From Phoenix dactylifera (Eukaryota > Streptophyta > Magnoliopsida > Arecales > Arecaceae), in NCBI RefSeq assembly GCF_009389715.1, contig NC_052394.1:21950899-22014898 (forward strand): DNA of 64,000 bases, in the 5' to 3' direction. The position numbers and the translations under genes were made by a program. Positions within the stretch are counted from its first letter, which is position 1; every line of letters begins with the position of its first letter. The notes beneath the pieces are model-generated. The model worked only from the letters and a program-made list of their open reading frames with translations, did no database searches and was not told the origin of the DNA. Positions 43,030 to 50,294 of this stretch are shown piece after piece.

Positions 43030-50294
<7,265 letters not shown>

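Follow-up and report, generated by a model that had tools for sequence, protein, structure and literature searches.

The described systems closest to the locus reported here are the plant P2A (ER-type) Ca2+-ATPases of the ECA1 group, the truncated SERCA1 isoform S1T, and a frameshifted invertase gene of the date palm. In SERCA pumps, E908 is described as a residue of the transport sites (PMC7313052), and S1T, as presented in PMC7760721, is a truncated SERCA with an effect of its own. For date palm, many frameshifts of the assembled CWINV2 gene were reported to be absent from other palms, and three cell-wall invertase genes were placed on LG14 near 2.469, 2.486-2.489 and 2.512 Mb (PMC6794320). 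As that report describes it, the assembly was built from PacBio RSII reads (about 93x) with FALCON-Unzip and corrected with Quiver and Arrow, and with Pilon using ~13.8x of 2x100 Illumina reads, which were 3'-trimmed at Q30 (PMC6794320).

We analyzed a stretch of 64,000 nucleotides of date palm DNA (C3:21950899-22014898), referred to below as the window, in which two copies of an ECA-type pump gene lie in tandem. The first copy (unit 1) and two paralogues elsewhere in the genome, on C13 and C3, have in common with the ECA1 group the domain order, the catalytic and ion-site motifs and a lysine-rich C-terminus; the second copy (unit 2) as assembled differs from that group in a stop before M8. 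Among the matches listed in a literature search for date palm ECA genes, none was on such a gene by its title.

Two tandem pump genes and a shifted frame

The two units are tandem copies ~17.5 kb apart with eight exons each, and they were modeled as follows.

25191 to 32805, plus strand: unit 1, the intact tandem copy, 1061 aa with a KHKDD end (GT-AG introns, homology)
25191-26609, 27126-27195, 27306-27427, 27559-27837, 27944-28321, 29562-29671, 31371-31599 and 32227-32805, plus strand: exons of unit 1
43030 to 50294, plus strand: unit 2, an ECA-type Ca2+-ATPase gene (GT-AG introns, homology)
43030-44448, 44967-45036, 45148-45269, 45394-45672, 45779-46156, 47261-47370, 49063-49291 and 49717-50294, plus strand: exons of unit 2
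49905 to 50291, plus strand: orphaned 129-codon frame of unit 2 (M8-M10, KHKDD)

By their sequence we assign both units to the plant ER-type (P2A/ECA) Ca2+-ATPase genes, with ER location and Ca2+ transport as predicted properties of unit 1. All ten of the motifs sought were found in unit 1, which at 1061 aa has the make-up of a full-length P2A pump, with the helix boundaries of both units set by homology to SERCA only. Its last exon matches Pfam Cation_ATPase_C, and SERCA1 and SERCA2 are the PDB entries that its first exon and its last match best. In scans of three pieces of unit 2, the Pfam families Cation_ATPase_N and E1-E2_ATPase were matched by exon 1 and Hydrolase by exon 5, and the first 79 residues of exon 8 had no Pfam match. 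Upon searching the genome (773,078,369 bases in 2,391 contigs) with a 401-base query over the lesion, we obtained five places, namely both units and loci on C13, C3 (minus strand) and C5, at an identity of 83-84% for C13 and C3 and of 72% for C5. The C13 and C3 paralogues are intact, with 1057 aa and eight exons each. Elsewhere in the window, a 448-residue frame (61065-62411, minus strand) matches the CAND6/7 N-terminal and GOST seven-helix domains, a perfect tandem duplication of 146 bases lies upstream of unit 1 (23171-23461), and Rfam gave no match at its gathering threshold.

The lesion lies in exon 8, where unit 2 carries a run of five T (49907 to 49911, plus strand; CTTTTTCC) and the aligned run of unit 1 (from 32417; CTTTTTTCC) carries six. 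A sequence-only reading of this stretch had proposed that the single missing T truncates the second pump at 948 of 1061 residues, and both the aligned runs and the eight-exon GT-AG models bear this out. The first altered residue is 935, and 14 new residues (935-948) lead up to a premature TGA at 49954-49956 (plus strand). As that reading had also proposed, the old frame of unit 2 stays open past the lesion; it runs from 49905 up to a TAA stop (50292-50294) and ends in KHKDD; neither this orphaned frame nor the 948-residue frame contains a further stop. Because a TAG at 49902-49904 shuts the orphaned frame directly 5' of the run, splicing cannot rejoin the two frames from upstream, and a rescue by upstream alternative splicing is ruled out.

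The proposed loss of M8-M10, of the M8 glutamate and of the C-terminal tail likewise held, with the helices placed by homology. The unit 2 frame lacks the stretches aligned to M8, M9 and M10 as well as the terminal KHKDD, which we take to be a KxKxx ER-retrieval signal. Upon alignment of the last exon of unit 1 with SERCA2, the M8 glutamate paired with that in 'AIEMFN' (residues 961-966), past the unit 2 stop, and on this alignment we take it to be the E908 equivalent. Retained in the unit 2 frame are TGES (residue 206), DKTGT (385), TGDNKET, GDGVND (732) and the motifs that we assign, presumptively, to M4-M6. TGES, DKTGT and GDGVND are the actuator and phosphorylation motifs; hence unit 2 as assembled has these parts of a P2A pump and lacks the ten helices with the M8 glutamate.

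A lost base or a residual consensus error

In length at the lesion, the C13 and C3 paralogues agree with unit 1, and C5 differs by three bases, with the frame kept. Since the two closest paralogues match unit 1 in length, we read the shorter run of unit 2 as a derived one-base deletion, the pattern expected of a recent pseudogene or null allele. At the position of CTTTTTTCC in unit 1, the same two paralogues read CGTTTTACC, and the longer run itself probably arose in the lineage of units 1 and 2.

A very young lesion or a homopolymer error were the two possibilities raised from the sequence at the outset, and both have survived our tests, with 'very young' turned into a bound rather than a date. 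We think it reasonably probable that unit 2, one of two tandem ECA genes of the date palm, is represented here by a recent loss-of-function allele. The main alternative, to which we assign a real but clearly smaller chance, is that an isolated homopolymer deletion was left in the consensus and that unit 2 is truly a full-length pump. These weights are judgements and not computed probabilities, and the balance tips somewhat towards a genuine recent null allele and away from an error.

Several observations speak for an error and, by the same token, against a null allele. The lesion sits in a homopolymer (T5/T6) of a PacBio RSII assembly with thin Illumina polishing (13.8x), and CWINV2 provides a precedent for frameshifts in this same assembly. 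Apparently allelic contigs, compared in four pairs, are proportionally richer in one-base indels (25 per 232 substitutions, with 13 of the 25 coming from one pair) than the two units are (18 per 399), so that isolated errors are possible. Furthermore, unit 2 has no other exonic indel and appears fully constrained 3' of the run, where the orphaned part shows no relaxation on the unit 2 branch.

Against an error, the one-base gaps are balanced between the units, nine in each, although this test is blind to an isolated error, and exonic runs as long as or longer than the T6 run were unaffected: unit 1 has four exonic runs of at least six, and the three other than T6 (G6, A7 and C6) are equal in unit 2. 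No frameshift was found in unit 1 or in the C13 and C3 paralogues. Short reads could also distinguish the copies, which differ near the run at 49880, 49970 and 49976. A 100-base read that spans the run includes a copy-diagnostic site in each of its 94 placements, so polishing could have fixed the base had the reads disagreed; of the 69 placements of a 75-base read and the 44 of a 50-base read, only 54 and 18 include such a site, which weakens the case for a real lesion. As runs of at least six differ in length between the units in one of four exonic and 6 of 17 non-exonic cases, the change in run length is as such unremarkable, and the unusual part is that it is the sole exonic indel of 41.

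We used CWINV2 as a positive control. A search for the invertase family returned matches on the minus strand of C14 at 2.468, 2.487-2.488 and 2.511 Mb, the middle one as four partial matches, in keeping with the positions reported on LG14 for the BC4 male assembly (PMC6794320). In a 3.3-kb alignment, CWINV2 (C14:2484500-2493000) had 38 private one-base indels (28 insertions and 10 deletions) compared to one in each of its two sisters, and 104 private substitutions compared to 33 and 25. Part of this pattern, at the least, resembles PacBio consensus that escaped polishing. A local stretch of poor consensus at unit 2 finds no support in the indel balance, in the contrast with CWINV2 or in the equal exonic runs.

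As negative controls we took 11 loci of the Pfam family Cellulose_synt, presumably CesA and Csl genes, of which six had no frameshift flags and five had some. The flags of four were judged spurious: those at C322 and C1a (two each) fell, upon coordinate conversion, outside the span matched by the CesA HMM, and those seen at D17 (four) and C9d (one) arose only with the broken C49 copy as the query. The C49 locus is truly broken, with at least three frameshifts among its 15 flags, four of which were inspected; the controls tell against an error at unit 2, and this one broken Csl copy tells against a null allele. The C49 copy (C49:237800-241200) is a cellulose-synthase-family gene outside the 18 linkage groups, either a pseudogene or consensus noise. 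For single-base frameshifts in this assembly, we suggest weighing the local indel density against a known noisy gene first.

Age of the lesion and constraint on the two copies

Silent divergence (NG86) amounts to 0.048 between units 1 and 2 and to 0.256 between C13 and C3. Of the 41 indels between the units, a single one is exonic (3,185 bases) and 40 lie elsewhere (5,471 bases), compared to ~23 exonic indels expected for the pair without selection. In the part 3' of the lesion, the units differ by one replacement and six silent changes, and the unit 2 branch carries one replacement and four silent changes; a neutral frame is rejected in this part (P = 0.001 for the unit pair and P = 0.012 for the unit 2 branch), and over the whole unit 2 coding sequence it is rejected more weakly (P = 0.028). 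Substitutions 3' of the lesion are compatible with an age of at most 0.38-0.56 of the unit 2 branch, varying with the assumed prior constraint, and those over the whole coding sequence with one of at most 0.85-0.89. The lack of any other exonic indel, with ~11.6 expected on one branch, gives an upper bound near 0.26, which suggests that the lesion arose within at most about the last quarter of the separate history of unit 2; gene conversion between the units would make these bounds run from the last homogenization. With the unit 2 branch taken as half of the pair dS, the 0.26 bound corresponds to ~0.6% divergence. Across the four pairs of contigs that look allelic, 232 substitutions were counted in 32,145 bases (0.72%), so the lesion, if real, could still be segregating. 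The lesion is either young or not real.

Constraint is weaker on the unit pair than on the pair of C13 and C3 (omega of 0.34 versus 0.13; Fisher P = 0.0016), as expected of a dispensable tandem copy, and the weakening lies mostly in the first 200 codons (omega of 0.87). Among changes before the lesion that could be polarised (24 others between the units could not), 19 replacement and 9 silent changes fall on the unit 2 branch (P = 0.18) and 9 and 6 on the unit 1 branch (P = 0.11). Neither branch is thereby distinguishable from neutral, which fits a constraint that has weakened in unit 1 as well as in unit 2. Codons 1-150 of unit 2 (43030-43479) hold a cluster of 13 replacement changes to one silent change polarised to its branch, for which relaxed and positive selection predating the lesion are alternatives. 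The cluster includes three Val-to-Ala changes at residues 90, 94 and 97, presumably around M1, and unit 1 has private replacements where the other three genes agree, for example at residues 61, 177 and 667.

Comparing 20014-36992 with 37305-54593 of the window, we found the gene bodies to be more alike than their flanks. The introns of the two units diverge by 5.7% (transversions 2.35%) and five flank pieces by 13.5% (4.7%; Fisher P = 1e-8 on transversions), and it is likely that the transcribed bodies were homogenized by gene conversion. A patch of intron 5 (28786-29358 versus 46619-47058) diverges by 12.8% in a gene body that otherwise diverges by ~5%, and is perhaps an unconverted island. 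The idea that the upstream flank is a transposon mimicking a duplication found no support, an 891-base piece of it having two genome matches at the sensitivity of the search.

We also considered that the 948-residue, seven-helix fragment functions in the manner of S1T, or that ribosomal slippage on the run yields some full-length pump, and we hold this to be very unlikely. The motifs TGES, DKTGT, TGDNKET and GDGVND and those of M4-M6 are retained, S1T offers a precedent as described in PMC7760721, and the TAG at 49902-49904 confines any frame change to 49905-49953, at or just after the run; however, conservation is no guide for so young a lesion, the description of S1T is that of an isoform and not of a frameshifted duplicate, and an ordinary loss is simpler. 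By analogy with S1T, a five-T allele that is real and segregating might yield a seven-helix product that persists in the ER membrane, where it would act as a leak or dominantly modify the intact ECA pumps, an idea that we rate as slightly more doubtful still. That unit 2 is an old, long-dead pseudogene is scarcely credible: its changes before the lesion are indistinct from neutral, as are those of the intact unit 1, but the single exonic indel against ~23 expected, the two frames free of other stops and the constrained 3' part disfavor it, unless gene conversion recently overwrote the exons.

A probable recent null allele and its likeness to known systems

If unit 2 carries a recent null allele, as we favor, a one-base slippage deletion in its T6 run would have shifted the frame, and the product would terminate within the luminal loop that follows M7. 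As three helices and the M8 ligand would be missing, such a product should form neither a ten-helix pump nor site I, and transport is not expected of it; the truncated protein would probably be cleared by ER quality control. With the new stop located in the last exon, the mRNA would not be subject to decay that depends on an exon junction. Decay via a long 3' UTR is conceivable, though uncertain: the new and the old stop end 338 nt apart, and the signature for such decay is given as >1000 nt (PMC9786829). The allele would be young and plausibly still segregating, and the loss of unit 2 would be tolerated because unit 1 and the paralogues on C13 and C3 would cover the function.

A real lesion would mean that one tandem ECA copy is naturally knocked out in an arid-region crop, and would provide a presence/absence marker that can be scored across cultivars. 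If the missing base is instead an error, unit 2 would join unit 1, C13 and C3 as one more ECA gene of full length, and its annotation as truncated would be wrong.

Compared to the systems introduced above, unit 2 resembles S1T in being a shortened SERCA-type pump and differs from it in its origin, a frameshift in a duplicate gene versus an isoform as described (PMC7760721). With CWINV2 (PMC6794320) it has in common a tandem-duplicate gene with one-base indels in PacBio consensus, whereas CWINV2 carries 38 private one-base indels, mostly insertions, and unit 2 a single exonic deletion on a balanced background. Overall, there is nothing unusual about ECA pumps, tandem duplication or single-base null alleles, and nothing in this locus falls outside these known kinds.
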